The position numbers and the translations under genes were made by a program. Below, in pieces: positions 13,401-63,752 of a DNA stretch of 64,000 nucleotides (position 1 is the stretch's first letter; every line of letters starts with the position of its first letter). This DNA is from Branchiostoma floridae (lineage: Eukaryota; Chordata; Leptocardii; Amphioxiformes; Branchiostomatidae). The notes below the pieces were generated by a model that was not told the DNA's origin, searched no databases, and saw only the letters and a program-made list of their open reading frames with translations. Location: contig NC_049990.1 of NCBI RefSeq assembly GCF_000003815.2, positions 5,010,251 to 5,074,250 on the forward strand, written 5' to 3'.

Positions 13401-16400
13401 GTACCCCAAAATATGCAAATGAACAAAAGCGATCATAATTATAGTTTTCCGCCCTCTTACCCGACAAATACCATGGGTGTAGTCACCTTGTGTAATCATG
13501 AGCCAGTGACATTACCTAGCTTAAGTTTATTTACGGCCGCGTGGCGCGTTGGTACACCCGATCCCTCTATCTCGGAAGTTAAGCAACGCGCGGTCCGGAC
13601 AGTGCTTGGATGGGGGACCAACCAAGGACGTCCGGATTGCTGTAGCCTCACGAAGCTTTCCACGAAATCGTCTTCCGGGAGGGACGTAAAACGGGGGTCC
13701 CGTGCTCGAGGAGGTGCCTCGACCACGTTAAACAGCCTCATTACTCATACTTTGGGTACCTACTGGCTGGCAAAATACACCAGATGATGATTATTATTAT
13801 TATCATTATTATTATCATTATTATTATACGCGGTCATGTTATCGTTTGGTGGTTTGTTAATAGATGTACAGTTGAATCATAAAGTAGGGTGAAGATGCTT
13901 TAAATTTGAGGTGGGGCTGATTATGTTGCTGAATATAGGATCGTAGGGATGTATATTTTAAGCAAAAGTAAAGTTAATGTAAGTTAGAATCTAAGACTGT
14001 AATATTTTCACAAACAAATCTATCTGTATAGAAAGCAGTACAGTTGTATATTAATAAACGCGTAAGGTACAGTTTCGTTGGAATATTTTAAAATTCTGTC
14101 AAATTTTTATCAAAGTCATGGATTTGAATAGTTTTTGTCCTGCCATATTGACGTAGTGGGTAAACCAGTCTGTACCAATCCCTTCCGACAGACCAATCTA
14201 GCTTCCCCGCCTAGCGGTTGTAACCAAACTGCACATCAACAGAACACCCCTAATCAATAACACGGCACCAAAGGTGGTATCTCACAACACTTGGGGCATC
14301 GGTGAGTCACTGCAAGGTTCGTAGATGATCATGACTCATCGAATTTCAGAGATAAAGACTTTTCTGACGTTTTGTCTATTTGAAAAAAAAATCATACTTT
14401 AACGTATTACGCACACGTAATAACAAAATAGTGCCGCAGTGAACGAATCCCGCAGCGTCGCACCGGTAGCCCAAGTGCAGCAAGATACCATCTTAACGAA
14501 TGGGTACGTACTGGTCACGGTGATGTCACACTTGGCCGAGCCGATATTTCCCGGGTCGACCCAGAAAGTCGTCGGCATTCCGACGGGCACCGCGCCGAGA
14601 CCGCCCGTCCGGGACGGCACCTGCCCCGCGTCCATTATTATACACTGGTGAGGGCTCCCTGGGAAGGAAGTTTTTAAAAATTTCTCGTGATTTGATACGG
14701 ACGAAAGACTTTGTACTGTACGTATAGATAAGAACATAAACTACAAACTTTGTAGTTTACGTTCTTTTTTATACGTACTAGTACTACTATGTCCTCCTTC
14801 AGTCAATATTGATCATGACAAAACCATATGTAATTCTTATTTGATGATGTTTGTGCCTACTAAAACGTTGGCCGCAAAACAGGTAGCACCAAAATCTATT
14901 CTAATCTTCCTGGTCTAGATTTGTTTTGCAACTACATCACAAACGTAAGGCAATTGCAAAGCTTCAGTTCCAAAGAAATCTATCAGGAGGCCAACATATC
15001 TATCGCTTATTCTTGTGGTGTATATAGGTAGCTTTAACATCACCCACACATGACAATAGTATGTTTCACAAATATGAGGAAAAAACAACTGCAGTTTTAA
15101 GGAAGGTCAGTAGGGCCTGAAATATACCAATTTCTTGATAAGGTCATGACCTGACGCTCATCAAATATAATGAAAAGTCTGTCTTGACTTTCAAGGTTCT
15201 ATAATCAAACAAACCAGTCACAATGAACTATGGGCCCTCAGTTCAGCGGAGAGGTAATTTTCGACATAATTGAAAAGCCCTTAGAAATGGTCTGCACACG
15301 GACTTTATGGTGATTGATGATATTGTGGTAACGATTTTTCAAGGGGCAATTTAAGGCTAACGACCTGAGCGCTAACTTCCTTGTCGGCTCTGAGCCTTAA
15401 CTGAGTTGGCGTTTCTAGTTGTTTGATAATAAAACGTATAAAACGAAAGGTTACAAGAACTTTCACTGAACATATTGATATTTTCAGACCTTGAGAGTGA
15501 GAAAGAGAAAAAGATGCAAAAGCAGCTGCAGTGGAAAAGTTTCATCTATTCATCCATTCATTTATCTAAGATTTAGAGACAAATTACAGCTGGCGTGGTG
15601 GGACATAATAATCATCATCAACATCATTGTCAATATCATTATCATTATCATCATCATCGTCATCATCATCAACGTCATCAGAGTCAAGTTATCGTCACTA
15701 ACAAAGTCGTCATTATCGCGTCATCGTAATCATCATCTTTATCGATATCGTCATCCTCCTCATCATCACTACAATTGGGTGGGGTACAAAATACCTAGTA
15801 TTGAACCTTGACCATACATGTACGAAGCGTAAGAACTCTGACCATAATTCTGTTATCTTACACATGTATAATACTATATTGTAAAACCTATCTGACCTGG
15901 TGTGAGCTCGTTGTTGTATCTGACCATGATGTCGTGGGTATCCACGGTTCCGGGGCGGAACATGAGCTGGTGCTTGCCGGCGGCGTGCTGCACCAGCCGG
16001 CTGGCCACCTCGGCTCCCCGCGCTCGGACCTCCACCTCGAGAGAACCGCTACCGGCAGAACTGGTGTCAACTAGTCAGGAAATAAAAGCTGTGTTAAACT
16101 ATGGATAATGCTAAACTTTCTTACAACACCAAGGTATACACTGATACAATTTTCAAACCTGCACAAGAGCCATTGAATTCTCCATGATAGGCTCCAGCAG
16201 ATACAAGTCACGCAAGGGAAGACACTATGTCAACCTGCTCAGCCTGCTGAAAGCAGACCTAAAGCACAGAGGGTGATCCCCTCCTACAACAGTAAAGAAA
16301 TTCGAAGAGCTAAGGAAGCTTACAGGATGCAAAGCACAGTGAAGAAAGATGACGAAAGACCGAATGCAGCTACAGATCTGATGTAGATGCACAACACAGT

Positions 16401-19400
16401 GAATGATGATGATGATGACTTTCGTTTTCTTCAGGATCAAGATTGATGACCAATCACTTCACTACGCAAACTCGCGAGAGTTACAGACACTTGATCTTAT
16501 CAACACGTGATCTTGTGGATACTTGACGTCAGAAATTGGTCAAACGTTGCCACCTTAGGATCTGCTTGAAGATTAGACTCAACCGACGGCATTGCAAGTC
16601 ACTTATGCTGAATATAGTAGTAACATGATTTATCTGCTCTTACAAATCATCACATCATCATGATAGTATACCCATAACACGAGATATGTAATCCGAAAGT
16701 TCTGCAGCAGTACCATATAAAATCGCCAGGTGGTTCATTACAGAACTTCGTTTTGCCGACACCTGCCCATTTATCAAATATGAGACGAAGCTTTTAAAGC
16801 GTTTCCTTCATGTCTTTAGAAATGTGTTGTGCACATTGTAATGACAAGCTTTAGGTCGTGCCAATTTCATGTGCATCACACAAGTGTATATCCAAACACT
16901 GCATCGCAGACATTCACTTGGTGTGTGTTTTCTTATTGATATCGAGACTCCAAAGCCCAGGAGGAGTGAAAGGGTCGGAAGTTAATGCACAGATGTCACG
17001 TAATGGGCACATTAGATGAATAAACAGGGCCTTAATGGCACCGGGAACCTATTGTAGACAGAACAACTTACATATTAGCACACAAACAAGGTCATGTACA
17101 TTCGTACCAGCTTTCGGTATTCTAGTGATTATTGCATCCATGAAAAATGTACTGTTTTGATTGTGTCTATATGTCCGTGTGCTTGTTTGTATTAAATGGT
17201 CAGAACTTACGAAGGTCTAAAAGGATTGTGATGATATTTGGTAAGACAGATGGTCCTGGAAAGACAAAGGTCAATGCCAATTAGGCCCCTGGCGGCTTTT
17301 CTTGGCCCTTCAGCTAAACGTCCGGTTTTGTCTCTTTTGTCTTGGTTTAAGCTAAAAGCTTACAAGCAAAGGCAAAAAAAATGTCAAAGTCTGATACTGA
17401 TATGACTTACAAGATGGCAAGCACAATATTCTATTGTCGTCTCTTACTATGTACATTATAAATGCGGACTTAAGTCCTTTACGAGTTGCATAAACCAAGG
17501 ACATCCTATAATGGCCCTGCATAAACCAGCATCAGTGGTCAGTCCGTCACGCAAACTTGGCTAATTCGTTCCGTAGGGGTCGGCTTCATCAAAGGGAAGT
17601 TTTGCAATTTTAACGAGGTTTCTGTTCGAGCATAACGATGTTTACCCTTAGATTGACCTTCAAAACAACTTAGAATCAGGAAAGGTCACGAGAACAATAG
17701 ATTTGGGTGGCATTGTGAATACTGAACAAAAGGCAGCAATAAAGCAAGAAGCTTAAGAAATGAAACCCGATGCTTTTGTGATGTGATGGTTTCGAAACTT
17801 GCTCAACATTAATGTCTATCCAGCCTGAGGTATCGCCAATAACGAACTTCCAATTAAGAAAGAAAAAAAGAATTTGAGGCGTTCCGAATCTGTGATGCTC
17901 ATTGTCAATGAACAGACTAGTACCCACAAGTTGCTGCAAGTTTGCAGGTATTCTACAAATTACTCTCATAACTATACAGAAAAAAAGGATCAGAATATGT
18001 TAGGAGTACCCTATGAATTCCGAGTATTATGGAATCTTTCCTTGGCACAACATGGTACACGTTAAGTACCTATAAAGTTGAAACCAGACAACTTACTTGG
18101 AACGACGACTTGCTGACCGAGTTTTCCTCTTGGGATGCTCAGTTTCACACCGCTGACGTCATAAGCGTGGCTGGTGAATGGGCTGCCGAAGATTTGCATA
18201 CCAGACAACTTGACTTCGATGTCATAGTCACCTTCAATATGGGGAGAAATGAGTTATTAATTATACTGAGGTGTGAAGGATATCTTATATTTTCTTTTTT
18301 AGTCTTGGCACGTTGAGGAAAAAAGGAGAAGAGAAGGACAAGATTGGAAAGATAGAGTGAATGAGAAATCTGAGAGAGAAAGTGAGAGAGCTGTGAAGAT
18401 ACGCATTCAACACATTGGAAAACAAGTTTGTCACAACAAAGTCTTATTCTCTGATTATATTAGGGAGACATAGAGTGATAGGTGGAGAGATAAGGAGAGA
18501 GAGAGAGAGACGGAGAGAGGGGGGGCGATACTACGGTAGCATAAAAAAGTATCAAAAGCTGGCAGAGGAGCGAATCCGGCCCAAGGAATATGGAAGAAGA
18601 GGAATAACGGATTCTCCAGACGACACAAAGAAATCAACAACCGGCGCAACTAGACAGACATAACAATAGATGGAATATTTTACTGAAAAGCAGCAGAGAC
18701 TTTTCGGCCCCAGAATTTTCTTACCCTTGTTCTTTGAAAGACGGGAATGTTATCACTCAAGTCATCGCTCTAGGCTACGAATATTTGGCATTGTGACCGT
18801 GTTTTTCAAAATGCTAAGGCACGAATCGAGTCTGTTGCCTAAACCAACGGACATATCCATTATGTCTAGCAGAATTCCCGTTCCGCAAATTCTTTCAGCA
18901 TGCTTTTGATTTTCTTTCCGAAGTATGGTATTCTTGGATAAACAGTGTAATGATACCGCGCTAAAATGAGCATGTGTAATGTATATGTACGGGGTATGTA
19001 TGGATAAAGCTAAGGACGGCTACCCTTTTAAATTTCTAGCTTCCTAGCTTTTAAATTTCTTTCCATATAATGGTATTCTTGGATAAACAGTGTATGGATA
19101 CCTCGCTAAAAGAACATGACTGATTCTGTAATGTATATGTACGGCGTATGTATAGATAAAGGGTGGCATTCTCGTTATTTCGTGCACCACATGCTTGGCT
19201 ACTCTAAACATGAGAATGTTTTTAACACGTTAGAACACAACTAGCCCAGTGTAGGATGCACCATTAGTTGCGGATACGCATGGTGCACCTCCATCACAAC
19301 GATACAAATAAACCGAATCACAAGGAGTACACTCAAGAATAACTGATTATATTCTAACCGATTACTAAGAAGGCACACTCGAGGTGTGTGCTCAGTGATT

Positions 19401-22400
19401 GTGGTCTCGCTTTTGCCACCCACCTCTATTTGATCTGAATACTTGGTGCGATTTACAAAACAACAATAAAACAATATATTTCCATAGTAACCGACGTAGT
19501 CGCTTTAGCTCGACCGACGACGGGCGCCTTTTCGTTAGCTAGCAGTAGCCTGTAGCCTCTACCAGGCTACGCAAGTCGCTGGAAAAATAGTAGAAATTAG
19601 CCAAATAAGACAGAAAACACGCCAGAGGAGTTAGATGGCCGAGGAGCACAGTTTGCGACCTAAGTGTACTCTTCAGCCATCTAACGCTGGTGTGTTTTCT
19701 GTCTTATTTGGCTACTACAATGTACTATTTTTCCAGCTTCCTTTTGAGCCTGATAGAGGTTAAGCTAGCAGTGCTTCGCTAAAGCTCGTGTATTGAAGCC
19801 AAACATACAGGGCCTGTGACCCCTACTCTTCTCGATAAGTGTGTTGGGTTCTTCTACGTGCAAAGGTTTGAAGGTATGGACACCACTGGAAAACACTTAG
19901 TATATGCTTAGTTTACAGAACACAAAACACAATCATTAACCTTCGATGCAAAATGCACCGAAAATTCCAGAAAGCCGTTGGCCTTTTGCCTACTTTATAC
20001 CAGAAGGTTTAAAATAGACGGGAACGACCTCTCTACCATTCAGTTCACGTGAACCCAAACATTCCTCTACACTTCATGCTATACAGGTGTAGCCGCCCGC
20101 CCCTTTGTAACATATCTCCGCTTCTGTGTCCGTGTGTCTGTTGCCCTTTCCCCGTATCCCCCCGTCACTTCCGAGCGGTCCTGAATGCTATTGTCTCTGA
20201 CACAGGGTATGTCTTCTTTCCAAACACATACACAAACATTTAGAGGGTTGTGCCATTTAGCGGTTTGTGGTTGTATGTGAACGGTGACCCCCAAGCAGAT
20301 GTTGCGAGGAGAGATCGCGTGATTTTTTCTGTCAGCTCATTTTTTTTTATGACGCACAAAAACTTAAAAGCTGTGTTTAAAATTTGCAAGAACTTCATAT
20401 TGTGTGTGAACTATTAGAAGCAGTGGGTAAAATGGAAAGAACATAAAGATATTAAAAACTTTACGGAGATCTTGCTCTTTTTCTGTAGAGGTTGTATTCG
20501 ACCTGTACGATACGACAAAAAGTTATGATTTGGATATGGTTTTGGAAACGGTCAGACGTTAACGTTTCAGACAACCATCCAGTGTCTTTCGTCAGTGACG
20601 CTGACGCTGTAAATTGATAAGCAAAAGAGATCATTTTTCGTCGAATTTGACACCAGCCTTAACTCATTTTGACATCTGGTGTGCCTTTCCTTTCTATCGA
20701 TTTCTTATGACAATGCTCAGATTTCTGGGACAGTGTCAAACTACATTGCGTACAACCGTGAACTCATGGTAGTCAATAGACGGACTCTAGTCGATCAATA
20801 AGCACATGTGGTTGATAGCGACTACCACAGGTGTTTAATTATGCCGTAATGAAGAGGAACTAGACCGACATCGGACCCCGCAGATCAATGCCTGGGTCTC
20901 CATTTCCCTCGTGCTTGAAGAAAGCAGATGGGATTCTTTTGTGCTCACAAGTCATATTCAGAAGAATGCTGATTGTTATACTGACACAATAATAGCTGTC
21001 ATTATCAGGTATGGTCCAAAAATCACTGGTTAGATTACAATGGATTGGGATTAGAATACTACGAACAACTTCCGGAAAATCTTCAAATCGCCCTAAAATG
21101 TAGCGACGACAGTGTCATAATGTCCCATAAAAATGTTTTTTTAATTCATTATCAAGAAAACTACTCTTCTCATAAAATCACAGAACCCACACACTAAATA
21201 AAAGTAGGGAATCCCGTCTTCCACTGTCTCAATAAAAAGTCAAATTTATGAGCCTTCGATCTGACGATCACATCGCTAAATTATTCTCCATTGTATATCA
21301 GTTTACCTGTTACTCACAATTAACCTTAGGAAAAAGTATCATAGATTTATCATCACTATTCGGTTTGAGATGTGATTAAGGAAACATATATTAGGAGAAA
21401 CTTGCTAAGTAAAGAGTTCCTCTTACAATATTCCTGACATGGAGTACTCACCCACTTCCTTGGGCGTATACTGGACCAGAAGTCGGGGTTGGTTACCGGA
21501 GTAGTGGCACGGAACGATCTCTGCAGATGGTCCTAGAAAAGAAGCAAGCGTGGAAAGTTAAAGTCACTGAAGAACAATAGTGATTATGAATGGTGTTTGA
21601 ACTTCTAGACTTGCTGGCCTGGAGTTCAGTCCGGCGCTTCCAAATATCGCTACTCCGAGAGGAACAGAATTAACCCTAAATAGTGTGATTACATAGTTTT
21701 ATTCAAATATACATTTAAACATTTCAACTTTACTGCAGGCACTTGGCTCATATGATATGAACAATTAATATGAAAACACACAATACAACAACACAAATAC
21801 AGTTTACGTACAATAAACTGTATACAAAACATATGGTTCATTTGAATATCTTGCAGCCCTGGTAAATCATTATTGAGATTTCGCAGTTACCGTGTGTATT
21901 TAAAGAAAGAGTCTTGGTAGATATTAGTTGAACTAGTCTCAGGACAGTTCCTTCATTAAGAGAAGTAACAGTATAATAATAATAATAATTATCATTGTTA
22001 TTATTATCATGATTGTTAAATATTTCAGAAGTCCATTTCTTTTGAAATCAAGAAAAAACTCTTCTGTGCTATAAACAGTAAATTCTTGCTAATTTAAGGT
22101 TGAACTATTCATAGAAGGCACCGGACCACACATAGTGACTTCGAATTCTTGTCGATTGAATGTGTCTATAGGCACCTCTAACAGTGTCTCAATGAGACAA
22201 AGACAACGCATCTTTTGAAGTGTGTACCAAACGTGTGTACGCGTGTGTATGCTCCAAGAGCGATGGGGTTTCAGCTGTCAATGTGGGATTACTCAATCCA
22301 AACAAGCACAAAACGTCGTCAAAACTACACATATTGGGCGGAATGACAATCTATGTAAACCCTTTGGGGGAAATGTTGGTTTTCAACGGTAGGTCACGTA

Positions 22401-25400
22401 GCCGCCCCTTGGATTTGCATTGATAAGTCACCAGTCTACACTAAAGATGCCAAATGTCTTGTTTACTTTGAAGATGTCCCGGATGGAGAGAAGTTGGCAA
22501 GTACCTAATTTGCATAAAGATGTCCCGGATGAAAGCCTTCGTGACGCAAACAAGACTGCGTATCTATTTATTCGACATTTCTATATTTACGGTGTCAATT
22601 TGTCGAGACCACTTCGATCTTTCCACACACGATACGGCTGAGTTGACTTTGTACGTATAACGGTAGCACACCAACACCCTTTTGTTGTCCGATAGGCAGT
22701 GCTTTATTGTCATTATAAAAGAATTATCTGGTCAATTGGGCTGCAATCCCAGAAGAGAAGATTGATGAAGAGAGAAAACGTTTTTGTGTGTGTAAGCTAA
22801 GCCAAGCTTAACGATATAATACACCAAACGACAGAGTGACACATGAGGTTTAAGTGAGAATATTGTGAGCCAAGTAGACATAACAAATAGATGTGGAAAT
22901 TTGACCACAGCTAAAAATGGGGCGTATCTTTACATCTATATTATAACGTCACATCTATGCAAGCATTCAACAAAGCATCACATGTAGTTCAGCTCTTGAT
23001 AGTACATGTCTAACGCTGAAATGCACTGACACAAAAAGTTAGGAAGCATCGGGAAGTTTTGAATTCAATTTGGGTCCAGTTTTATTTCTTTTCAAGGCAA
23101 AAAATGCGACAGGTGGTTGGAAAAATACATTTGTACTTCGGAAAATATGAAACCGACTGGTAAATAAAGGTGATTGATGTAAACGGGAGGTAAACCCTTT
23201 TTTTGTAAACCTGTCCCCCTTAAGGTACTACCTGTTGACATGGGACATGTTTTGAGATTCTTTTGTTTGTTTGTTTGTTTGTTTGTTTCGCATACCCGGT
23301 AACTGTCTCCAGGAACAACTAATTCTACGAACTGTGTAAGACCAGACTGTAGAGTTGATCCACTCACACCAGAATGGGCCCCTGCTCTTTTGATAAGTAT
23401 GACGGCTTTCAACGTGCTAAGAGGTCTTCCAAACGCGGTCTCTGGCTTTACATTCAATATGAGATGACGTCCCTATCCGAAGATAAGTACCCATTTTCAC
23501 ATCTAGGTGTAAAGTGTCCTTCCCTAGGACAGTAGCCTGTTATCCAGCCGTATCACATTTCTCGAGTCTCTTCTGTCCTCAAATTGCAAATTGTGGAGGG
23601 GACAGAAGAGACTCGGGAGCTATAATATGGCTGTTATCCAGGATAACAGGCTACTAGGACAAGACATCAAAGTCTGCTAGGGATCCGAACCCGGGACCCT
23701 TAAAATTCCAAATCAAGAACCCTAACCATAAGACCACCATGCATGCCACCTCATGCTGCACAAGGAGGTCATTTCAAGAGAAATGGAGGCGTGTGTTTAC
23801 CTAACATCTTAACTGCCCACCAGGGAACCATCGTCTTAAAGTACACTCAGAACCGTCTTGGGAGGGATCGTTTTGCTTTGATTAATCCAAATAGATTAGG
23901 AGGAACCAAGATGGCATGCGTTTATTGAAATTGCATAACAAGAGTACTATAGTAGATAACGAATTGTAGATATCTTATATTTTAGAGCTGTTTTTGTCTT
24001 AGACGTTTTTTCTAATAACTTATTGCGAATCGCATTACTTTAGCAAATTAACAGTGCAATTCAGTTAACTACATGTACACATAGTTAGCTGCTAGACATT
24101 ATTTTGAATGGTCGAATAAAAACCAAATCATCAATACTTTTTACGATATATTTGCTGTACTTTCCTCAATAGTTCAAGAATAAATTTACCAGTCTATGTC
24201 ATAATTATCCCACAGTAAAGTAGAATTGGAGAGCAGCTATGATAAGTTTTGAAGTCGTTAAGGCTATTAATGCTTACACGAGTCATTAACACTAAGCAAG
24301 TATCTTGAAGAAATCAGAGTGCGTTATTCAAGTCCACGAGAAAGTAATTACAAAGACGACATCTTCTTGTTTCCCCACATTTGACGGAAGTAAACAAAGA
24401 TGGAAACAAACATATAAACACGGACATCAGGTCGTCAAGGTGTAGTTTCCTTAAAGGTTCCGGAAAAGGTGTGTTTTGTTTTTAAGGTTCACTGAAGAAC
24501 CACTAAGTAGAAATACCTACTTCACCACGTCAAGGACAAGAACAACTACCGCCGCTTCTTCAAGTTCTTCAAAGCACGCACGGTTTGTGAAAAATCATAA
24601 AGGATGCTTGTGTTTGAAGCATCAAGAATTTTCATATTCAAAGTGCGGTTTAAGAAATAAATCTTGTTAGAAACGGCGACTTCCGACTTCGTTATCTAGT
24701 TTGTAATCTCTTTTGCGGAAGCGGAACTGTAGTCGTCCGGTTGGCATTACCTACAAAACGGCTTTTGGCTACAAAAAATACATTTCCCAACGCCACAAAG
24801 GAAAGAAGGATGAAGTACTTAGACTCTGACAAGAAAAGTTGGGAAGAGGGTAGCTTAAAGAAACTAGGTCGCTCCTAACCTCTTAGAGACCCAAGCAGGG
24901 ACTTCAATCGTCTTAAGGTTGCCGGCAGGTGCACAGAAGACACATATTTGCTTAAAGACTCTGCCGAAAGGCCACTAGCCTTAAGATGGAATAAGACGCC
25001 TTGTATACAGGGCGCTGTGCGAGAATCAGACAATGATATATGTGTAGAGCAGATTCTAAACACAACTAATGGCAACTCGCATACCCCCCGCGGTGGTCAC
25101 GCCGGATAAGCGTCATCAATAAAAGTGTGTTCAGCAATTAAACATTTAAAGGGATGGAGGTGACATGCAGGTAAGAGGGTCACCTGGGCCACCAGGTGAG
25201 AACAAAGTGGTGAAGTATGCAGGTACGAGAGGTAAACAACAGTTGTGTGGTGTTGTTGAATTGACACCTGTTTGAGAGAGACGTACCTGTGATGGTGACG
25301 TCCACCTGTCCGCCGACAGCTCGCGTCTGGTCGATGACGAAGCTGGTGCTGCGGTTGACAGGGACCTTGTGGAGCCCCGGGCCCGACGCAGTCACCCTAC

Positions 25401-25427
25401 TGGCCTGCGAGCTCGTGATGGCGGGTT
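351..25427 (-). CDS. Filamin-repeat protein, 25 internal exons (3' end beyond window)
   Basis: Exons in transcription order: 25427-25287, 21532-21452, 18231-18097, 16070-15897, 14658-14512, 11470-11390, 10934-10797, 10294-10121, 9802-9641, 9364-9284, 9019-8876, 8518-8351, 8104-7949, 7598-7515, 7164-7027, 6549-6373, 6057-5656, 4456-4322, 3986-3864, 3286-3137, 2772-2668, 2293-2114, 1845-1735, 1467-1294, 500-351. Each has AG/GT borders and phase 1 at both ends; they sum to 3,711 nt (1,237 codons). Translation gives repeated filamin/ABP280 Ig-like repeats of about 90 residues, recognised by V-x-ASGPGL type starts, (D/N)TxxAGxG, YTPxEVG, and G(S/N)PF at the repeat ends. Filamins are elongated cytoskeletal scaffolds whose repeats bind membrane receptors and signalling proteins, with actin binding normally given by N-terminal CH domains. 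Eight repeats precede a Pro/Ser hinge and four follow it. The donor after 351 is intact, so the gene continues leftwards. The family is certain. Orthology to vertebrate FLNA/B/C versus a jitterbug-like invertebrate filamin was not resolved. Confidence 0.9.
4506..5308. mobile_element. Non-autonomous PIF/Harbinger-like element, TTA target duplication
   Basis: The terminal inverted repeat is about 16 bp: tacccgcctcacatta at 4509-4524 and its complement at 5290-5305. It is flanked on both sides by TTA (4506-4508 and 5306-5308). The element is about 797 bp. The interior is GC-richer than its surroundings and full of cgatc/gatcg words. A 112-codon open frame at 4574-4912 (plus) resembles no transposase that I recognise. 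The 3-bp TTA/TAA duplication is characteristic of PIF/Harbinger elements. Confidence 0.7.
5656..6057 (-). other. Filamin hinge exon, Pro/Ser/Arg-rich linker
   Basis: This is the largest exon of the gene (402 nt, 134 codons). It starts SPFAFEVRPGQ, closing repeat H. About 105 low-complexity residues then follow, rich in Pro, Ser, Arg, Asn and Glu and with no Ig-repeat signature. It contains three tandem RFEPNS units and related REP/RSEP units, and ends PEPDYWRG at the splice site. Filamins carry calpain-sensitive flexible hinges between repeat blocks. Position between repeat blocks and composition fit that role; protease sensitivity is inference. Confidence 0.8.
5820..5878 (-). repeat. 24-bp tandem repeat coding for the hinge octapeptide
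   Basis: The 24-bp unit occurs at 5820-5843 and 5844-5867, identical by eye, followed by a partial third copy to 5878. It stays in frame and gives tandem eight-residue units RFEPNSSN. Confidence 0.9.
6373..8104 (-). other. Filamin cassette 4: repeats G and H (exons of 156, 84, 138, 177 nt)
   Basis: Repeat G has ATASGDGLQLAP and FVVDTARAGG. The 84-nt exon has CHFTPTEIG. The 138-nt exon has DGSPF followed by TFDLSKVKVG, opening repeat H. The 177-nt exon carries repeat H, including HFQPKVAGSH and FNGFEVEG. The cassette has 185 codons. It is the last copy before the hinge, whose exon starts with the closing SPF of repeat H. Confidence 0.88.
7781..7880. repeat. Dispersed repeat, copy in filamin intron
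   Basis: It shares a gtaacccctgcttc block, gatgtttctga, and gaagagatgctgctacag in the same order with 56572-56690 near the third CUB gene. No clear termini were identified. Confidence 0.55.
8351..9802 (-). other. Filamin cassette 3: repeats E and F (exons of 162, 81, 144, 168 nt)
   Basis: Repeat E begins VSKVTVSGDGIED with FFVNTDDAG, and the 81-nt exon ends IVEYTPVDVG. The 144-nt exon has GSPF followed by TYDVSKINVLLGG, opening repeat F. The 168-nt exon begins DTSHAGGG and ends RVVVPG. The cassette has 185 codons, and introns are short (about 270-360 bp). Confidence 0.88.
10433..10595. mobile_element. MITE with 28-bp inverted ends and 9-bp target duplication
   Basis: Inverted ends lie at 10442-10469 (starting tagcctctaccaggct) and 10559-10586, with two mismatches. 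The direct repeat gtaaggcaa flanks it exactly at 10433-10441 and 10587-10595. Same family as 19547-19763. A 9-bp duplication fits Mutator-like elements. It lies in the filamin intron between exons 10294-10121 and 10934-10797. Confidence 0.8.
11471..14511 (-). other. Filamin intron, 3 kb
   Basis: No filamin exon was found between the two splice sites. The stretch contains a poly-C run at about 11817-11828, the 5S-like sequence at 13530-13650 and an ATT microsatellite at about 13787-13827. Otherwise I see nothing. Confidence 0.7.
13530..13650 (+). pseudogene. Diverged 5S rRNA-like sequence
   Basis: About 120 bp line up with the animal 5S rRNA over the full expected length. Recognisable blocks are cccgat, atctcggaag, taagca (A-box region), cttggatggg and gacc (C-box region), and gctgtagcct at the 3' end. 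Spacing between blocks is kept to within about two bases. The central helices and the 5' third are strongly diverged. No T-run terminator follows. It is either a 5S pseudogene or the head of a 5S-derived retroelement. It lies inside a 3-kb filamin intron. Confidence 0.65.
15610..15765. repeat. CAT/ATC trinucleotide-rich microsatellite
   Basis: This is a degenerate run of atc/cat/gtc triplets in a filamin intron. Apparent open frames across it are low-complexity artefacts. Confidence 0.85.
16071..18096 (-). other. Filamin intron, 2 kb
   Basis: It contains a solo end of the aggatctgcttg-type inverted-repeat family at about 16556-16575. Nothing else was recognised. Confidence 0.6.
18911..19160. 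repeat. Direct duplication of about 100 bp, 147-bp period
   Basis: 18911-19012 and 19058-19161 share tggtattcttggataaacag, gctaaaa and tgtaatgtatatgtacgg in the same order. The copies are separated by about 45 bp in a filamin intron. Confidence 0.75.
19538..19772. mobile_element. MITE of the tagcctctaccaggct family, long arms, 9-bp target duplication
   Basis: This 217-bp element has inverted arms of roughly 80-90 bp that share ggaaaaatagta, ccaaataagacagaaaacac and ttagatggc. It is flanked by the direct repeat gctagcagt at 19538-19546 and 19764-19772. It lies inside the filamin intron 18232-21451. Confidence 0.8.
21533..25286 (-). other. Filamin intron, 3.75 kb
   Basis: It holds an inverted-repeat element at 23531-23653, a tttg microsatellite at about 23262-23290 and a short repeated word agatgtcccggatg near 22472 and 22518. 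No exon was recognised. Confidence 0.6.
23524..23660. mobile_element. Short inverted-repeat element with 7-bp direct flanks
   Basis: Ends agtagcctgttatcc and ggataacaggcta are inverted, and inner arms gagtctcttctgtcc and ggacagaagagactc are inverted as well. The direct repeat ctaggac occurs at 23524-23530 and 23654-23660. Confidence 0.75.
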
Positions 25428-27135
25428 CTGTAATCCAAGACAGCGGACCATTCAGTCATGTCAACTCGAGAACAGGCCGGCTTTGTTCCAAGTGAATACC
25501 GGCGGCTTAGCCCGACAACGGCGGTACACATGCTTGGGGAGGACCCGGAATGCTGGGGTCGACTTTATCCCCGCCTTTCAGCGCCGCTCTGGCATGTCCA
25601 GGGCATGTAAACAGGTAGCGAAATAGACAGACGACATGTGTACCTTATCTAGAACACACCGCCTTCTTGTGTATCACCGCAACATTAACACCTGTATGCG
25701 ACTTAAGCCAGGGAAAAGAGTACGTCTCAATCGAATAATGCACATTTTGGGGTTTCTCGTCGCACTGGATTGAGGAGAATAGATGGAACGAAGCGGCATA
25801 TTGGTCACAATCCGGTGCTCATCATTACGCCATGCGATCCCCACAAGTCTACCATGGCGTTTCGGTGATTGGGACGTTAGAACCAGCGGACCGAAACTTT
25901 CCCGGGATGCCGCAAATGGCAGGACGGGTAGGAAAGTATGCCGAGAAAGGGGGAGGGGCGCACGAATACATCTGTTCTGAAAATGAATCTTTGCATATTT
26001 CGTCTGAATGTGGAGTTAAGTTTTTATTATTCCATATTACTACTTTGAAGATAATGAAATGAAAAAAAAATATATACATTGCATACAGAGTCTACAGCGT
26101 TACTGAATAGTTGTCAAGTTATCACATATAAAACTTTAAAACATGTACCAAATATTTCGACAGTACGAATATAGCTATTATTTTCTCAGCGATATCAAAA
26201 TTGCACCAGACAATAGTTTGATTTCTCTAGATGCGTTTTTGGCTACTGGTTTTAGTCATTTTGAAATGAAAAAAAGAAATTTTTGATGATGCCGTTATAT
26301 TTATGTCATATCCATCTTATAACAGCACAATTTGGAGGCTTAAAAGTCCCAAGGTGTCAATGCGTGTCCCAGATATCTATTATTATCGATGACACCTGTG
26401 ATAGATTATGATCGATCACGTCGGGAGAAATTTTGGTACCGTTTAGATGGACGGCATCCCAAGACTCTTGACCTCTATGACCTCTAGCAAACCTCACAGG
26501 TATTACGATGTTGTGACACCTGCATTCTATCACCTGACGTACAGGTAAATAAGGTGTTAAACATTGTCTATAAGCGCACATCACGAGGAGAATGAACACA
26601 TTGTCGTATCTCTCGTTTATCTGATCTTCGTTTCCTCGCTCTGCGGTATTTGTGTGGACTTTAACATGCAGCTGGCAAAACTAAGAGTGGTATCTGAGAA
26701 CCCCATTCCACTAGACGTCGATAGCGCTAAATTGGATATTTGTAACCCTTAACTTTATGATTGGAATGCCATGCAAAATGTAATAAAAGTACGACTGAGT
26801 GAGAAGGCAACGAAACATACAAAGCGTAAAAAGATTGGTTGAGCGTTCTGTCAAATTTTTCGGTCGCAAGGCGGTTGTAGCGACGTCACAGCCCTAGTGG
26901 AATGGGTTTGTAACATAATGATTACAATCGCTGTAAATTTGTCTAAATTTTACCGTCACTAAAATCATCTTATGATTATTGTCGTAGCTCTCAAATTCGC
27001 GACGACAAAAGGAGCCCTGCCAGAAGAGAAGCGGCGTGAAGAATCGCAGAACTGTGAAATGTGACGGTCTATTTAACAAAGCACCGGGGGAACCAATTGG
27101 GATAATTATCTTTCAATCGCATCAGGGTACTTAGG

Positions 27136-27370
27136 TCTCCTTTCCACTATACGGCGATCGCGCTGCGCTCTCACTGCGACCTAGATAGGATTATCTGTAA
27201 CCTTTCACACTGGGCATATCATACAAAACGTAAAAGTGAGACTGAGAAGACAACGAAACACAGAAAGTCTAAAAAGATTCGATTCCTCTCTATACAATTC
27301 GTTGAGTGATATGCTAAATTCTAGGTCGCAGAGAGCGCGCGGCGAGAGCACCGTCCTAGTAAAAAGGGGA
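27136..27370. mobile_element. Inverted-repeat element, about 235 bp
   Basis: The left arm ends in tctcactgcgacctag and the right arm begins ctaggtcgcagagagcgcg, with inverted homology of about 45 bp out to tcctttccacta / tagtaaaaagggga. A related internal segment (gacaacgaaacac ... aaaaagatt) occurs at 26800-26840. Confidence 0.65.
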
Positions 27371-27708
27371 TATTAGATGATATGGAAGGGTAGAGCATTC
27401 CTAAAGTCGTGCGGTATAATTTTGCGGAAGATGATACCAAATAGGGCTTTTGACATCTTTGATTAATCGTCTTGCGAACGCGACAAATCTAGTAACAATC
27501 CAACAATGAAAAGTAATAAGAAATAAATATTTCATACAGACGGCCGTAACGTGATACCCTGCATAGATACCGATGGCTGGGTTGATAGGGTAATAGATCA
27601 TTTAATTACAGAGGAACAGGAGCTTGGGGAGCTAAGCAAATAAATCTCTCTCACAACCTCACGTTGGTTTATTACTATTAACGATAATTTTAGAACGTAT
27701 GACTAGAA

Positions 27709-27713
<5 letters not shown>

Positions 27714-27739
<26 letters not shown>

Positions 27740-27935
27740 TTGTGTGTGTATGTGTGTGTGTGTGTGTAATTGTGCAAACAAGTGTGTGTGTGTGTGAGTG
27801 TGTGCTTGTTTAGGTGTGTATGTATGGATGTATGTGCGTGTTTGTGTGTATGTTTGTTTCTCTCTGTGTGTGTGTGTGCACTGTATTTCTTTGTGTGCTT
27901 TGTGTGTGCGTATGTCTTTGCGTCTATATACCGTA
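27714..27935. repeat. TG/CA microsatellite
   Basis: An imperfect (TG)n run of about 220 bp, interrupted by taat and gcttgtttag-type segments. Open frames over it on both strands are artefacts. Confidence 0.9.
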
Positions 27936-28296
27936 CAAGACATCATTAACATTCCACTTTCTTGTCAAGATATCTTAATCCTAACCTAGCACATCTTTTA
28001 TCAGCTAATTTTTACTTGCAATTTCACATTCCAAGGGCCCTCACCCCACCCCCATACAAACCTCTAGCCCCGCCCCTGTGAACTATTCCAACACACCGAG
28101 TGACCTTTCTTTTTAAGGTATTAAGCCTACAGTTCAGAAAAACATCGTTCTGAACGAGTCCAGGGGATATATCCTTACAGGTGCGAGCATGGGAACCTGA
28201 GTGCAGTGGGAACGGTTCAGGACGCACTGTTTAGATTGGCGTCAAGCCCGCCTCTTTGTACGCAATACCCGGAACGGCAGAATGGCGATCAGCTAG

Positions 28297-28497
28297 CACA
28301 ACTCTCCAAGCAGAGGTCAGGCTCCGGCTGTTTGTTTTTTGAACGTTTTTATGCGTTATTATCAGGCTTTCTATTTTGTACCGTTTTCGTTATGTCTTGC
28401 TAGATGGTACAAAATAGATAGCCTGATAAAAACGCCTACAAAACGGCAAACAAAAACAGTCAGATCCTGACCTCTGCTTGGAGAGTAGATCACAACT
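28297..28497. mobile_element. Inverted-repeat element of the ctccaagcagagg family
   Basis: Arms of about 75 bp: ctccaagcagaggtcagg on the left and its complement on the right. Inner arms atcaggctttctattttgta and tacaaaatagatagcctgat also pair. cacaact is directly repeated at 28297-28303 and 28491-28497. Confidence 0.8.
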
Positions 28498-30458
28498 AGG
28501 GTCCAAACTAGGCGTCGAGCCTGGAACTGGAAATGTAGCCTCCGCCAGGCCGTCCTACGGGGGTACGGGGATCGTAGAATTCGGCAAAAAATAATCATGC
28601 AGTAAATTGGCTAGGGTAAGTCGAAGTCTAAGCTAAGGTTTATGTTCCTCCTCCTACTCGGCGGCCAACTCCTCTAGTAGCAATATTTATCCCCTGGCAA
28701 TTATTCTAGTATACTACTAGTAGCCAGCGCAGTCAGTCAGGTAGAGACTAATGAAAATGATACAACGTACTGTGTGTATGTACTTAATCTGTCTGGTGTA
28801 TCTATTTTTGTATGTATGCATGTATGTATCTGAGTGTTAGCATGCGTGTTCTTAAATAAAGAATACAGAAATAGACTTATGCTACAGGTAGCCTAATTGT
28901 CCTTCCCTGGTGAATGATCACCTCTGTTTGGTTAGTTTCTTAAAGTTTCTATTCGTTCAACAAGTCAACTTAAAAAGCAGCTTGCCCTAGCTATTGTCGT
29001 TCTTTAGCCAATCCTCTGTCAGCTTTTAGTACTATCCTATGCTACCATAGGATCTGCTTGGAGATTAGCTAGAGACTACAGTCAGACTCAGACGGCCTCC
29101 TTTTAACGACGACGGACCCGGAACAATCGATGCCAACGATACGCAATCTCTCCTCTCGTTTAACGAGAAATTGACGGGCACCTCTGGATAATGAAATTGG
29201 TGCGGATCTAATTGCCCAAACAGAATACGGCGCAAAACGTGTTATAAGGTTCACATAACCAATTCATTTAGAATTATAACACAAAGGAGCAGAAATATCT
29301 GGGTTGGTAAGCAGTACAAAGAACAAACAAACGTAGATTGTTTTTCAATTTACCATCTCTGTTTGCTTGTGTATTAACGGAATGTTTGAGTAAACAGCCA
29401 AATGACTCTGTTTTTTGTAACCTTTATTAGATCCTGAAGGGTGTTTTGGACCATTCCATCTATTTTACAGGGGTGGTTTCATACAATACTTTCAGTTTGA
29501 CCCTAAAGCTTCCGGAGAACATTTTCAGGGGAAACCCCATCGAAACAAAAATTGTTTTTTCGGTCAAATGCATTTATAGGCAAGTATAACAGACAGCATG
29601 TTAGCTTTGAGCGTAGCAGTCAACTTGGTAAGCGATACAAGGCTACTACTCTAGTGTCACTTTGTGTGCATATTGAAGCAAAGAACAAAACCCTTGTTGG
29701 CTGTGACAAAATTTCATATCAATTATTATAATTGTTACAATGTTTATGATCTCTTTTTTGAAAAAAAAAACAAAACATATCAGGCTTCTTTGTTTTACCC
29801 ATATTGTTTTTTTCGCTTTTCGCATTATATTTTGGCGATTGCAGAGGATGCATTTCATGAAATGTCTAACTTCCAATATGATTTTTTTTCTTTTTCAGAT
29901 TTTCATCCTGCATCCAAAAACCACACAGTCGATTGATATGGCCTATGGGTGATTAGCACCGTTGTGCGTAGGCCGGTATATATACAGCACAGGAGATGAC
30001 ACAGGTGTGTAACGCTATACCTGTGGGTTACCTGCACAGGTACAGGACAGGTAAACAAACTTACATGTGTGAACACGGGGGGAGGTGAATATATAACAAG
30101 ATTGTCAGCGTGTCACACACGGGAACTTTAGTAGCCCCTAGTGCCTGGGACAAAGGGTCTCTGTGTCTAAATGGTTGGGGCTGTGTTTTTCTTTGGCTTA
30201 GTATCCACAAGATGCTACATCACGCTATTTGTAGGACCATCGTTCATTATTTAGGCCCTCAGATGCCCGTCTTGACTTGGCGCTTTTCTATGCCTAATTG
30301 CTTGCACTGCCTATAAATGTAGCCGAAATCTAGCTCACTACATACGGTTCCTTAATGTATAAGGCTAACAGTATTTGAGTGCGATGATATGCCGACAAGA
30401 GATTACTAGATACTGAAATGGTTTAGCCAAAAAGCCGATGCGTGACTTCATTACGCAG

Positions 30459-31138
30459 ATAATTTATTTTGACTGGATAAGACTGTTCAAGACTTATACT
30501 TGTCAAAACACGTTTGTTCCTATTGACTGTTTTCACGCACATCAAATCCTGGGGATTTCCCCTTGTCAGAACAAAACCATTCCCTGTACATAAGAATTGA
30601 TTGGATGTGAAATACATATTGGTATCCATCTTTAGACGATCAGTTGTACTATCTAAAATCTAGCCGAAAGTCAAAGCTTAATCTCCATAAATACTAAATA
30701 CTACAGTCATGTAAGTGGTTCAGAGTCATCATTATTGAGTCTTGGACAGACATACAAGGACAAGATGAATGACAAATAGAATACCTAGGTCATCCCTTTC
30801 TGTAGAATTAGGGCATCCAGAAGATATATTGGTACAGATGTCGTTCTGCATTGTAGTATCTGTGCAAGCACAAGCTCACATACACAATTCCGTATGCAGA
30901 TAATTGAATGTGAGTGGATAAGAATCGTCTAGACTTATACTTGTCAAAGCACGTTTGTCCCTATTGACCGACGTGAACCCTTTTCACGCGCAGTAAATCC
31001 GGTGGGTTGCCCCTTGTCAGGACTTAAGTAAACCCTATAAATAACAACTGATTGGATGTGAATTATATATTGCTTTCTATCTTTAGATCAGTTGTTGTAC
31101 CTAAAATCTAGGCGAAAGTCAAAGCTTACTTTAAGCTC
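30459..31138. repeat. Direct duplication, about 230-bp units 440 bp apart
   Basis: 30459-30687 and 30900-31138 share agacttatacttgtcaaa, cacgtttgt, ttgccccttgtcag / ttccccttgtcag, attggatgtgaa, and cgaaagtcaaagctta in order. The divergence is moderate, so the duplication is not recent. Confidence 0.8.
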
Positions 31139-31303
31139 CCTAGAATTACCAGATACTACATGTGACACATACAACACGTACCCTGTAGATAGCAACCGAC
31201 GGGATATGAATTATTGAGCGGCGGTGTTTGAAAGCATAAAGCGTTATAAAAGGTTGTTTCCAGACAGCGCCCTCCCCCTATACTCACGTAGAAAGCGTGG
31301 ATG

Positions 31304-31414
31304 TAATACTATGTATTCTCCAAGCACCGAATGTGAGGGGAGCGAGCCGGTAAAAATCCCGACCACCACTAAATCTCCGCGACCCAACCTCTGCTTGGAG
31401 AATAATACTATGTA
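31304..31414. mobile_element. Small inverted-repeat element with 12-bp direct flanks
   Basis: Ends ttctccaagcacc and ctctgcttggagaa, with taatactatgta directly repeated on both sides. It shares the cttggaga terminus with the elements at 28304 and 31534. Confidence 0.6.
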
Positions 31415-31533
31415 GTCTGTCAGACTAACTACGATGGCTACAGGTATAGTATTTGCCAGGGAGGAGTTTGGTCGCCATTTGCCAGGAGCAGTGATAAACG
31501 TACCGCGGAATGACTCTCCTGGCCGATGATTTA

Positions 31534-31673
31534 TTAATCTCCAAGCAGATCCTACGATGGCAAAGGGAGTCAGACGGGCTCCGGTAGAATACACACTCCT
31601 AGTCCGGCTTCACTCCTCTATCAACTTGTGATGCTATCTTATATGCTACTATAGGATCTGCTTGGAGATTAAT
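31534..31673. mobile_element. Inverted-repeat element, taatctccaagcagatccta family, copy 1
   Basis: Inverted ends taatctccaagcagatccta and taggatctgcttggagatta. The interior contains aaagggagtcagacgg and ggcttcactcctct, shared with 41483-41650. Confidence 0.75.
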
Positions 31674-31907
31674 AATTTTTACCTTATGAGCTTATTCTAG
31701 CCAAATTCTACCACCCGACCCCCCCATAGGAAGTCCTGGTGGAGGCTAAATACTACGTAATAGTGAAAGGCGTAGAACAGGTTTCTGACTCATTAATTAT
31801 TACTCATTACGCGTTGTGTTAACTACTTGAAAAGGTTGACGCCCCGGCTTGTCTTTGCATAACCCTAAAAATGCCCAAACAACAACAACAACAACAACAA
31901 ACCTTAC

Positions 31908-31914
31908 CTTGCAT
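31908..31914 (-). CDS. Candidate start exon of the filamin-repeat gene (ATG CAA G)
   Basis: Reading the minus strand, ATGCAAG is followed by GTAAGG, a near-perfect donor. The coding part is Met, Gln and the first base of a third codon. Joined to the acceptor at 25427 (AA CCC GCC ATC) the frame continues as MQEPAITSS and then into the first filamin repeat. The start has a purine at -3 (AGA before ATG). An in-frame TAG lies 27 nt upstream in the same exon, so no earlier start is possible there. The 5' UTR would extend into the CpG-richer stretch to about 32.5 kb. The donor, phase and stop are seen in the sequence; linkage over a 6.5-kb intron is inference. Confidence 0.45.
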
Positions 31915-32560
31915 TCTCTGAGACCGCCTCTTACACGTACGCTACTCCAGGGCCACAGGTGAAATCTTTTTTTTTCCCTCTTCTGTTATTCTCAGGAGGT
32001 CAACAGACCATCTGTGCAGGTGTTCACGTCTGCGATTGTTCCGCCGCAAACATTAACTCTCCTCGAAAAACGTGACCCCTTCCTATAGCCCGAAGTAGCT
32101 CCAAGTTTGCCAGGTCCTTCACACAACAGTCCTACAGTTTATTGTAACGTCCACGGCGTGCGTAAGCTACAACTACTCTCCCGGCGTACGTGGTGTTACC
32201 CGGTTGTCCTAGAAAACGCCGGCGCTAACTCCAAAAGAAAAACCTCCCAGTGTGTGTAGGTAAATCCACGGGCGGTTTGAAATACCGAACAACCGTCTGC
32301 GTCTATTGTCCAGTGTATTCCGTGCCCGTACGTTACTATACTCCGCGAGCTACCCAGGTACAATGAGGGACTTAAGACAACACTACGCCTGTGTGAGGCT
32401 CACCTGTGTTACCTGTAGACACGAGGAAGGCTTAGCCCGCTGTGACTCCGCCCCCAGAGGTCAAAGGGCAGTGGATCATCCGAGGACGACACGCATGGCT
32501 ACAACCGTTCTCATACTTAAGAGCTCTCCTGTGCGGAAGGGCGTTGGCGTGAGACCCAAC
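31915..32560 (-). promoter_or_regulatory. Candidate promoter / 5' UTR region of the filamin-repeat gene
   Basis: Base composition changes to CpG-containing, GC-richer DNA (gccggcgc, cccggcgtacg, ctccgcccccagagg) just upstream of the candidate start exon, between AT-rich repeats. No TATA box was recognised on the minus strand. This rests on composition and position only. Confidence 0.3.
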
Positions 32561-32741
32561 CTCAGCTAAAGACACCAAGACCGTACATTTACACACCGGA
32601 AAAAGGGTCAGGCTTAGGTGTGTGTGTGTGTGTGATGGTAACACATTAGATGGTAACGGCGATTGATGAACAATTGAACAGCGACCAATACTGGATTTGA
32701 GTGACCCTTGATTTCATAATATATGATACAAGACGTAAATT

Positions 32742-32806
32742 TATGTGCTTTTTTGAGCGATCTTATGTGCTTTTTTGAGCGATCTTATGTGCTTTTTTGA
32801 GCGATC
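32742..32806. repeat. 22-bp tandem repeat, three copies
   Basis: The unit tatgtgcttttttgagcgat plus two bases is repeated three times head to tail, immediately before a gatcgg-rich stretch that leads into the MITE at 32862. Confidence 0.85.
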
Positions 32807-32861
32807 GGTCAAATCTTTGGTCGCTCTGGGATCGCTTTGCGGTCGCCACATCAAGTGTTAA

Positions 32862-33093
32862 TACCCTTGTCACATTATCCACGAGCTTCGGGCGTATCGA
32901 TGGAAGGTCGGCCATATTTAAGATCGACAGAGGGTTGCGCGTGCTTTTCACCTGAAAACCGTCCCTGTCACATATAAGCCATACTTTGTACATTGTACAA
33001 TTGTTGTGCAATAAAGTTATTATTATAAGCGAGGCTCGGGCGATTGCCGCAGAATCGTCGTCCGATCGATTTTCGCCAAATGTGACAGGGGTA
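32862..33093. mobile_element. Short Harbinger-like MITE, copy 1
   Basis: This 232-bp element is nearly collinear along its full length with 62461-62690. Ends are tacccttgtcacatt and aatgtgacaggggta. TAA sits on the left; no matching right duplication was seen. It includes cacctgaaaa, acatataagccatactttgt and ttgttgtgcaataaagtta in both copies. Confidence 0.75.
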
Positions 33094-34505
33094 TCTGTCG
33101 TATTGCATTTGGTGGATTTATAAGCTGTGTTATCGCTTTCTTTAGAGATGTGAGATAGTGAACTGGAATAAATCCACAACAGTCGCAGAGAGGACGTATT
33201 GTTGGAACACTCGTAGCCGGCTTGTCGTGGTATTTAGGTAGGAATATTGTAATGCGATTATAGCTATGAAAGCATCAAATGACTAATTAACCGCGAGCAA
33301 ATCGTAGACTTATTGAAAAAAAGTCGCAGGACGTCGTAGAACACCCCATAATGAAGCTACAAACCGTCCAAATCAAACAAAATTCGAAGGTACGAAGGTT
33401 ATGTTTGGCGCCGAAATGGGTCAAGGGCGGCTAAATTTTGTGTGGTCACGTGATACTCTGTAATCGTTGTCGTTTTACTGTTTTTAAGGCCTGTGTTTGG
33501 AATTGATGGGGTTTTGTTTTTCTAGACACATACACTTCGCGACGGTTTGTTTAAGCTTCTGGGTAAAACTAACTGCCGATACGACCGGCTGCTTTCCCGT
33601 ACAAAACAGGACCCTGATTCAGAGGGACACACATAAGCAACAGGATAGCAAAATCTACACCTTTTTAGATAATCTGAAAGGACGAAAATTAAACATTCGG
33701 TCACAATTGAACTGTATATTGTGTGAACTGTACAAAAATGTACTTAAGAATGTACATAAAAGTCATGCAATGTTAACCACGTGTATGATTTCGCAATATT
33801 TCCTCTCTGTTTCAAGAAGAAATCATATTTTTGCATTGTGAGAAATGTGATCATAAGGCCAAGTGTTTGCTTTCATCGGCAATCTGCTAAACGAAATGCA
33901 AGTATATCACTCAGGTCATTTGTGGTGATCGCCATGCATGTAGTCTGTATGCACATAGCGAGATACGTAAGAAGTGCAACCAGCTCTTGGGCGGGTGAAC
34001 GCGTTTGATATTTTCTTGTCGACTGGATCTATTCAAGGAGGTAAAAAAAAACCTCATTGATCTATTCAAAACGTGATAGTCAAGTTTCAAGAAACACAAT
34101 GCTACAAACAGATTTGAACATCTCACAAATACGCGTTGTACTAGATACATAAAAGATTGCTTTGTTATCAGAACAGATTCTGAAGCCCATGATTATAAAT
34201 ACCTGATTGTAAGAATATATTATAAATTTACTTATGTAGAGTGTTAAGATTTATTTGGAATTTCTTTATTGTAATTGACCGTAGACAAGCTGTAGTTTCT
34301 TGATATGTTCTATATGATGCTTGTAATACATAGATAGATCGCATGAGGGCTATTTCGGCTGACACATCGGGTAGGGGGACCGAGAACACGCTGCAAAAAC
34401 AAACCTGCCATGGGTATGGGATGACATCTGTTCTTTTCTCATCGAGTAATGCTACGTTCCCATTTGCGCCTGTGCCCGACCGGACTCCGAAGCCACAAAT
34501 TGTAA

Positions 34506-34661
34506 TACAGTAAATGCATTTAAGTTCGCGGGTATTTTAAGTTTACGGTAGTGCCATGGAATGCACTCTCATACTATAATGGAAAAATGTTCGCGGTGGT
34601 TTTAAGTTCGCGGTACGCGGTGGTCACCGCGAAAACCTCAAACATTTCTGCATTTACAGTA
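34506..34661. mobile_element. MITE, tacagtaaatgca / ttcgcggtgg family, copy 1
   Basis: The 13-bp inverted ends are tacagtaaatgca and tgcatttacagta. The internal words ggaaaaatgttcgcggtgg and ttaagttcgcggt are shared with copies at 37671-37882 and 49191-49386, and a fragment at about 44379-44423. Confidence 0.8.
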
Positions 34662-35702
34662 AGTTGGTAAAGGGAGGCCTTCGTATAAGCAGAAGCATAT
34701 GATTTAGCTGGAAACAACTTCACAAAGTTTGCAAAATTTGCCATCTTTTTCGTGTTGCCATGGTAACCGTTTAATTGACGAAAATCACTAATTTCAGTTG
34801 CAAAGAAAAGGCGGGTCTGAATAGGGTTTAAGTATGCTTGTTGACGACCCTACTTCGGTGAGTGAGAGTGTAGCCATCTGTGTGGGAAGCCTTTCTAGGA
34901 CACACGATAACTGTCCTTCCTATTACGACAGCGTTGGCATGGCAACTATCTTGGGCTATTCGCGCTGCAACTGTTGACGTTACGTAAACTTTTTACCTCT
35001 GATGTCACTAGCGTACTTTGGAAAGTCAAACCTGTGCGAGTAAACCCTTGAAATATATGTAAGGCCACAGCAAGTAAATTTTATGAATGACATCCGCGAG
35101 CGCATTAATTTTCGCCTGATTTCAGAAAAAAAAGAATTTTTTTCTTCTGCAGAATGGTAAACATGATAATGAAGTACCAAAATGAGCAAATATATTGTGT
35201 TGTAGCCTAATAATTGTACTTGTAGAAGTGACACTTGCGAGGTACCCAGGGCTGTAGTTGTAGAAATGAAACTTGGATAGTTGTAAGAGTGACACCAATA
35301 TGAAAGCCAAGAGTGTTGTTGGTTATGCCAGTCTACCACACTAATGTCACCTTTACCATACCAGTACATGTCTTAAATACAGGAATGAATGCCGTGTTGG
35401 CTCTGATACCATGTTTTGTCCTTTTAATTCTTTTTACAACAGTCATCACAACTTTATTTGCCTATCTTTTAAAATTTAGCCATCTTGTTTTTTTTACCCA
35501 TCTTGTTTTTTTTCATCCTATCGCACTATCTTTGCAGTCTGCAGAGGATATCATCCATAAAATTTACTTGCTGTGGCCTAAGGATAAGCAGAGCAAAAAA
35601 GTCAACCTGTGATGTTTTTCATTTCTATGACCAAATTAGATGAACACTCGACACAGCCCTCCTTCAATAAACTCAATTACATTATCTAATCAAAAGAGTA
35701 GT

Positions 35703-35708
35703 TTTATT
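35703..35708 (-). terminator. Polyadenylation signal AATAAA, CUB gene 1
   Basis: The plus strand reads tttatt, about 73 nt past the stop codon. It is the nearest canonical hexamer. Confidence 0.65.

Positions 35709-35780: not shown

Positions 35781-39519
<3,739 letters not shown>

Positions 39520-58457: not shown

Positions 58458-63752
<5,295 letters not shown>

Follow-up and report, generated by a model that had tools for sequence, protein, structure and literature searches.

We found in the Branchiostoma floridae genome a filamin-repeat gene, gene A, which we read, with a probability of about 0.72, as an independent filamin gene of the jitterbug/FLN-2 type that encodes a rod only; it would have arisen by duplication of a rod, would start from a new short first exon and would code for a scaffold protein. 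The analysed stretch of 64,000 nucleotides, called the window below, is C12:5,010,251-5,074,250 in a genome of 513 Mb, and positions given without a prefix are those of the window. Gene A occupies the minus strand, with 26 exons in the window, from 25427-25287 through 36-1. All exon lengths in the window are multiples of three, all introns are in phase 1, and the 1,249 codons present contain no stop and no frameshift. A Pfam search of this coding sequence gave 12 filamin repeats (PF00630, E 4.6e-175) and no CH domain. The gene is far beyond chance.

Exon borders were taken from open frames and splice sites, and the exons were then joined; unless stated otherwise, each exon was found both in the exon scan and in the joined model. 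The first rod exon, E1 (25287-25427), begins EPAITSSQASRVTASGPGL. Its acceptor is AG, and its donor, CAG followed by gtacgt, is strong; it opens in phase 1, as the sequence-only reading had claimed, and codes for the first half of filamin repeat R1. It is followed by E2 (21452-21532, middle of R1), E3 (18097-18231, end of R1 and start of R2), E4 (15897-16070, 174 nt, R2) and E5 (14512-14658, end of R2 and start of R3). R3 and R4 continue in E6 (11390-11470, middle of R3), E7 (10797-10934, end of R3 and start of R4), E8 (10121-10294, R4) and E9 (9641-9802), in which R4 ends and R5 starts; R5 and R6 continue in E10 (9284-9364, middle of R5), E11 (8876-9019, end of R5 and start of R6), E12 (8351-8518, R6) and E13 (7949-8104), in which R6 ends and R7 starts. 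R7 and R8 are carried on by E14 (7515-7598, middle of R7), E15 (7027-7164, end of R7 and start of R8) and E16 (6373-6549, R8). The R1-R8 part thus consists of four two-repeat units of four exons each, with exon lengths of 141-81-135-174, 147-81-138-174, 162-81-144-168 and 156-84-138-177 nt. When R1-R8 were compared with solved structures, the best matches were repeats of FLNA, FLNB and FLNC.

The end of R8 is joined in E17 (5656-6057) to a 126-aa linker that is rich in Pro, Ser and Arg and contains tandem RFEPNSSN units; against the repeat HMM this exon scored 1.3 bits only. Past the linker, R9 starts in E18 (4322-4456, from the joined model) and ends in E19 (3864-3986); R10 occupies E20 (3137-3286) and E21 (2668-2772) and ends in E22 (2114-2293), where R11 starts; R11 continues in E23 (1735-1845) and ends in E24 (1294-1467), where R12 starts; and R12 continues in E25 (351-500) and ends in E26, of which positions 1-36 are in the window. 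According to the joined model and the flanking sequence, E26 runs past the window edge to C12:5,010,098, and a terminal exon carries the stop codon at C12:5,007,991-5,007,989, past which AATAAA is present near C12:5,007,775. The last repeat, R13, was found outside the window, which brings the total to 13 repeats in the order R1-R8, linker, R9-R13; the gene ends in a short basic tail, and its product should have ~1,379 aa, counting a Met-Gln start.

Within the genome, gene A is related to the canonical filamin at C5:3.06 Mb and to four genes on C12. Gene J (C12:21.55-21.65 Mb) is headed and of the jitterbug/FLN-2 type; CH1 and CH2 were identified by Pfam, CH3 by reading. The other three are gene B (C12:4,998,119-4,984,995, minus strand) and gene C (about C12:4,963,144-4,979,750, plus strand), both next to gene A, and gene D (about C12:11,838-11,804 kb, minus strand). 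As far as it was read, the J rod is built of four-exon units of ~147-81-138-174 nt in phase 1, so that a four-exon, phase-1, two-repeat module is common to A and J. For the C-terminal block R9-R13 of gene A, counterparts are present in each of B, C, D and J, in a comparison where R10 of J falls partly in a run of N and the second half of R9 of C was not found. In the canonical filamin, the four exons found in C5:3.058-3.070 Mb differ from those of gene A in lengths and cuts. Gene A, which has both the rod module and the C-terminal block in common with J, is not a headless version of the canonical filamin. A linker exon is apparently also present in gene D between R8 and R9, with none visible in genes B and C.

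The start of the gene A rod is probably a true start, as judged from the exon that opens it. In genes A, B, C and J, the internal exons opening odd-numbered repeats have x-P-[FYH] after the split codon in 15 of 15 cases (exons found by scan and checked on the DNA, covering part of the J exons), and the split codon is G in 14 of the 15, one of these G being assumed. This motif belongs to the previous repeat, as its last strand. At this position, gene A has PAI in E1 and gene C has TIL in the first of its exons found, with the same border and phase, as expected if no repeat precedes. An HMM made from the gene A repeats detected no further filamin-like exon upstream of E1 (best score 0.1 bits, with a plus-strand null of 1.4).

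Since neither E1 nor E2 contains an in-frame ATG, the start codon must be spliced on. The sequence-only reading had proposed for this role ATGCAAG at 31914-31908 on the minus strand, directly before the donor GTAAGG, with an in-frame stop 27 nt earlier and an in-frame Met-Gln-Glu junction; all of these features are seen in the sequence, the stop being TAG, the coding end being in phase 1 and the junction to E1 reading Met-Gln-Glu-Pro. A scan of ATG-to-donor paths within 25428-35702 returned it as the sole path of at least 4 bits ending in phase 1, and its donor, at 7.2 bits by an approximate matrix, exceeds 24 of the 25 gene A donors. Comparable paths were often produced by dinucleotide shuffles of the region, at least one path of at least 6.5 bits being present in 10 of 60 shuffles (17%) and at least one path in 57% at 5 bits and 77% at 4 bits; thus, the start exon is not beyond chance. 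Just upstream, at 32001-32500, G+C is 0.53 and CpG o/e is 1.01; CpG o/e is 0.89-1.04 in 31751-32750, with a peak of 1.50 at 33001-33500, while across the window it has a median of 0.84 and a 95th percentile of 1.25. The CpG content weakly supports a promoter. The 5′ flanking sequences of genes A, B and C showed no blastn similarity at E 0.01, and no Met-Gln-like start exon was found before gene C or gene B among the candidates of at least 3 bits (six and four, respectively).

The Met-Gln exon at 31914-31908 is the best of the candidates and a plausible first exon of gene A; we would put it at somewhat better than an even chance. The path is by far the best and is in frame; 17% of shuffles have one of equal strength, and no counterpart was found in front of B or C. 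There is a sizeable minority chance that gene A is rod-only with another first exon, either some other short exon in phase 1 or an untranslated leader combined with a start elsewhere. The yield of the shuffles at 6.5 bits agrees with this, as do the weaker candidates present in the region and the fact that gene A donors are often weak themselves; yet any such exon would have to supply the ATG that E1 and E2 lack where no path comes near ATGCAAG in strength, and where the base composition just upstream (G+C 0.53, CpG o/e 1.01) sides with the Met-Gln exon.

For the head, we searched both near the rod and far from it. In the interval of 25.4-35.7 kb, where the sequence-only reading had seen no CH coding, Pfam confirmed the lack of it on both strands: no CH was found with stops read as X in the three minus-strand frames of 25428-35400, nor on the plus strand of 25.9-35.7 kb, and none was found on the minus strand onward up to 64 kb. 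As a positive control, the CH1 and CH2 exons of gene J, treated in the same way, were recovered by Pfam with E-values of 4.7e-11, 4.2e-7 and 0.013. A genome-wide CH search gave 55 matches at E up to 1, six of them at filamin loci: C5:3,014,267 and 3,045,138, where the first filamin repeat found is at 3,061,302; C12:21,552,639, 21,564,097 and 21,564,471, upstream of the J rod; and C3:11,019,275, with a filamin repeat at 11,020,154. No match was present on C12 between 4.9 and 5.2 Mb, and none within the gene A locus or 6 Mb upstream of it, which would tell against gene A being a rod-only isoform that has exons in common with a longer, CH-bearing transcript; the next one upstream on C12, at 11.37 Mb, is weak. 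We also used seven CH peptides from the same genome as tblastn queries. They recovered their counterparts (CH1 with E 4e-24, the CH1-CH2 border with 1e-15 and CH2 with 6e-9) as well as the C3 CH (E 6e-9), and their best E-values were 0.66 in the window and 0.08 in the loci around B, C and D. Gene A therefore appears to be rod-only, with no detectable CH, a reading supported by every search made; the earlier proposal of a rod-only filamin is extended by the negative results on the minus strand to 64 kb and with tblastn.

It is improbable that gene A is headed after all, either through exons situated far upstream across CUB genes or through a head too divergent to be recognised. Distance deserves attention, because about 47 kb separate CH1 from the first repeat found in the case of the canonical filamin on C5, and about 25 kb in that of J, and a search range of 10 kb, such as the one used earlier, alone proves little. 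The proposed beginning of the gene between 25.4 and 35.7 kb survives in that the CUB gene upstream is closed, as had been claimed (stop near 35781 and AATAAA at 35703-35708, minus strand, read from the sequence); the signal is the likely upper limit of gene A, but the range by itself is too short to dispose of a head. The wider searches address this shortness: along the minus strand to 64 kb there are CUB domains of same-strand genes, the nearest of which carries a polyadenylation signal of its own, and no CH, and the next match on C12 is the weak one at 11.37 Mb. As for divergence, the controls cover CH1 and CH2; CH3 of gene J was not detected by Pfam, and for a CH3-like domain there was no second CH3 to serve as a tblastn control, so a very divergent CH could escape here too.

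Headlessness seems to be common to gene A and its relatives B, C and D. Between the end of gene A and the first repeat seen in gene B, no domain was detected on the minus strand, apart from one chance-level row of E 0.037; the first A-type repeat of gene B was not found. Upstream of gene C, the genome CH search and tblastn, which were the only searches applied there, gave no CH; the first exon of gene C holds an in-frame ATG near its 5′-end, at which the gene may start. Upstream of gene D, no CH was found in 11,838.3-11,848.0 kb, a Myb-like match at about 11,845.6 kb (E 1.4e-4) being under the Pfam cut-off; stretches of N in two of the loci read make the headlessness of D less sure. The C3 locus (C3:11,019,245-11,020,900) has one CH and, after it, an open frame that contains a single filamin repeat together with low-complexity sequence; in the 2 kb read it resembles a protein of a different kind.

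Several further observations were made at these loci. The tail in which gene C ends is long and rich in Pro and Tyr (C12:4,979,112-4,979,750), and a Pro-rich open frame is present past the last repeat of gene B (about C12:4,984,461). More filamin exons, probably of another gene beside D, are located at C12:11,742,047-11,797,781 on the minus strand. A match at C12:22,827,112-22,830,196 (minus strand) equals the 3′ part of J in score and represents a further copy or an assembly duplicate.

Identity in R11-R13 between gene A and B, C, D and J is 43-46%, and between D and J it is 57%. In an unrooted tree of the five R11-R13 sequences (the middle of R11 in gene C being a tblastn reading with unchecked exon borders), B and C form one pair (96/95), D and J form another (91/90), and A stands between the two; the sequences at C12:11.742-11.798 Mb, the copy at C12:22.83 Mb and the 3′ part of the canonical filamin stood outside this tree. 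With A in that position and no root, the tree leaves room for more than one origin of the cluster. That gene A is a decaying pseudogene copy of a headed gene would agree with the missing head but is very improbable, since 1,249 codons in 26 exons have stayed intact although identity to the relatives in R11-R13 is down to 43-46%.

Judged by its similarity to gene J, gene A appears to be of the jitterbug/FLN-2 type, the fly and worm sequences being likened by description only. The mark of a canonical filamin, an N-terminal actin-binding domain of two CH domains, was not found in gene A, and FLNA/B/C, whose repeats are the best structure matches of R1-R8, differ from it in the same CH1-CH2 head. 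Three CH domains are the mark of jitterbug and FLN-2 in the available text of PMC3143143. This three-CH actin-binding domain was likewise not found in gene A; it is present in J, with CH3 by reading, and J is thus like Jitterbug of Drosophila and FLN-2 of Caenorhabditis elegans while it has the rod module and the C-terminal block of gene A. The headless form seen here differs from the Jitterbug/FLN-2 case in apparently being a separate gene, not an isoform.

Filamins that consist of the rod only have been described in fly and worm, as isoforms. FLN90, a short isoform of Drosophila filamin/cheerio, consists of repeats only, without the actin-binding domain, according to the part of PMC5173320 available; gene A resembles it in being headless and made of repeats only, but FLN90 is the C-terminal part of the product of a canonical filamin gene, whereas gene A would be a separate gene of the other filamin type. 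Similarly, FLN-1C of C. elegans is described, in the available text of PMC3143143, as having nine repeats, no head and an alternative transcription start, and the worm FLN-2C and FLN-2D are likewise given there as lacking the head; FLN-1C shares headlessness with gene A but is an isoform of a canonical filamin. Separate rod-only genes look new in the papers searched. Among titles and abstract openings, with subscription papers mostly outside the search, there was nothing on lancelet jitterbug-type or rod-only filamin genes, and the portion of PMC12046049 available names Branchiostoma only for HSPB7.

The reading we prefer, that of a stand-alone rod-only gene, would imply the following course. 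A headed filamin gene may have had its rod part duplicated without the 5′-end encoding the actin-binding head, and the duplicate may have taken a new short first exon, probably the Met-Gln exon at 31914-31908. By analogy with FLN90, the product could not grip F-actin itself and might act as an elongated scaffold gathering partners at membranes or junctions; it possibly competes with full-length filamins for partners. This function of an F-actin-free scaffold is wholly inferred.

The presence of several apparently headless copies (A, B, C and D) points to a small gene family, not to one odd gene, and the headed relative J is on the same chromosome, C12, as gene A. We lean slightly towards the view that a chordate lineage has made a headless isoform into a small gene family derived from a jitterbug-type rod, with own starts and differing C-terminal tails; the family would then have at least three members at C12:4.96-5.04 Mb and at least one at 11.80-11.84 Mb. 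Filamins are regarded as cross-linkers of actin, and it is hard to separate the actin-free role of FLN90 from that of the full-length product of the same gene. Rod-only genes would allow this role to be studied separately and would provide an example, in a chordate, of an isoform that became a gene. Vertebrates are not known to retain a jitterbug-type filamin; the headed gene J suggests that this type was present in the chordate ancestor.

Some other features of the window were noted. The sequence CTCCAAGCAGA occurs 7 times in the window (0.03 expected), at 28304-28314, 28473-28483, 29053-29063, 31390-31400, 31539-31549, 31657-31667 and 63458-63468, with six of the copies in the first intron of gene A and on both strands; they look like ends of small inverted-repeat transposons. 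A run of 100 N is located near 63.3-63.4 kb. Plus-strand open frames at 60017-63000 resemble, by eye, the heavy chain of an SLC3A-type amino-acid transporter.
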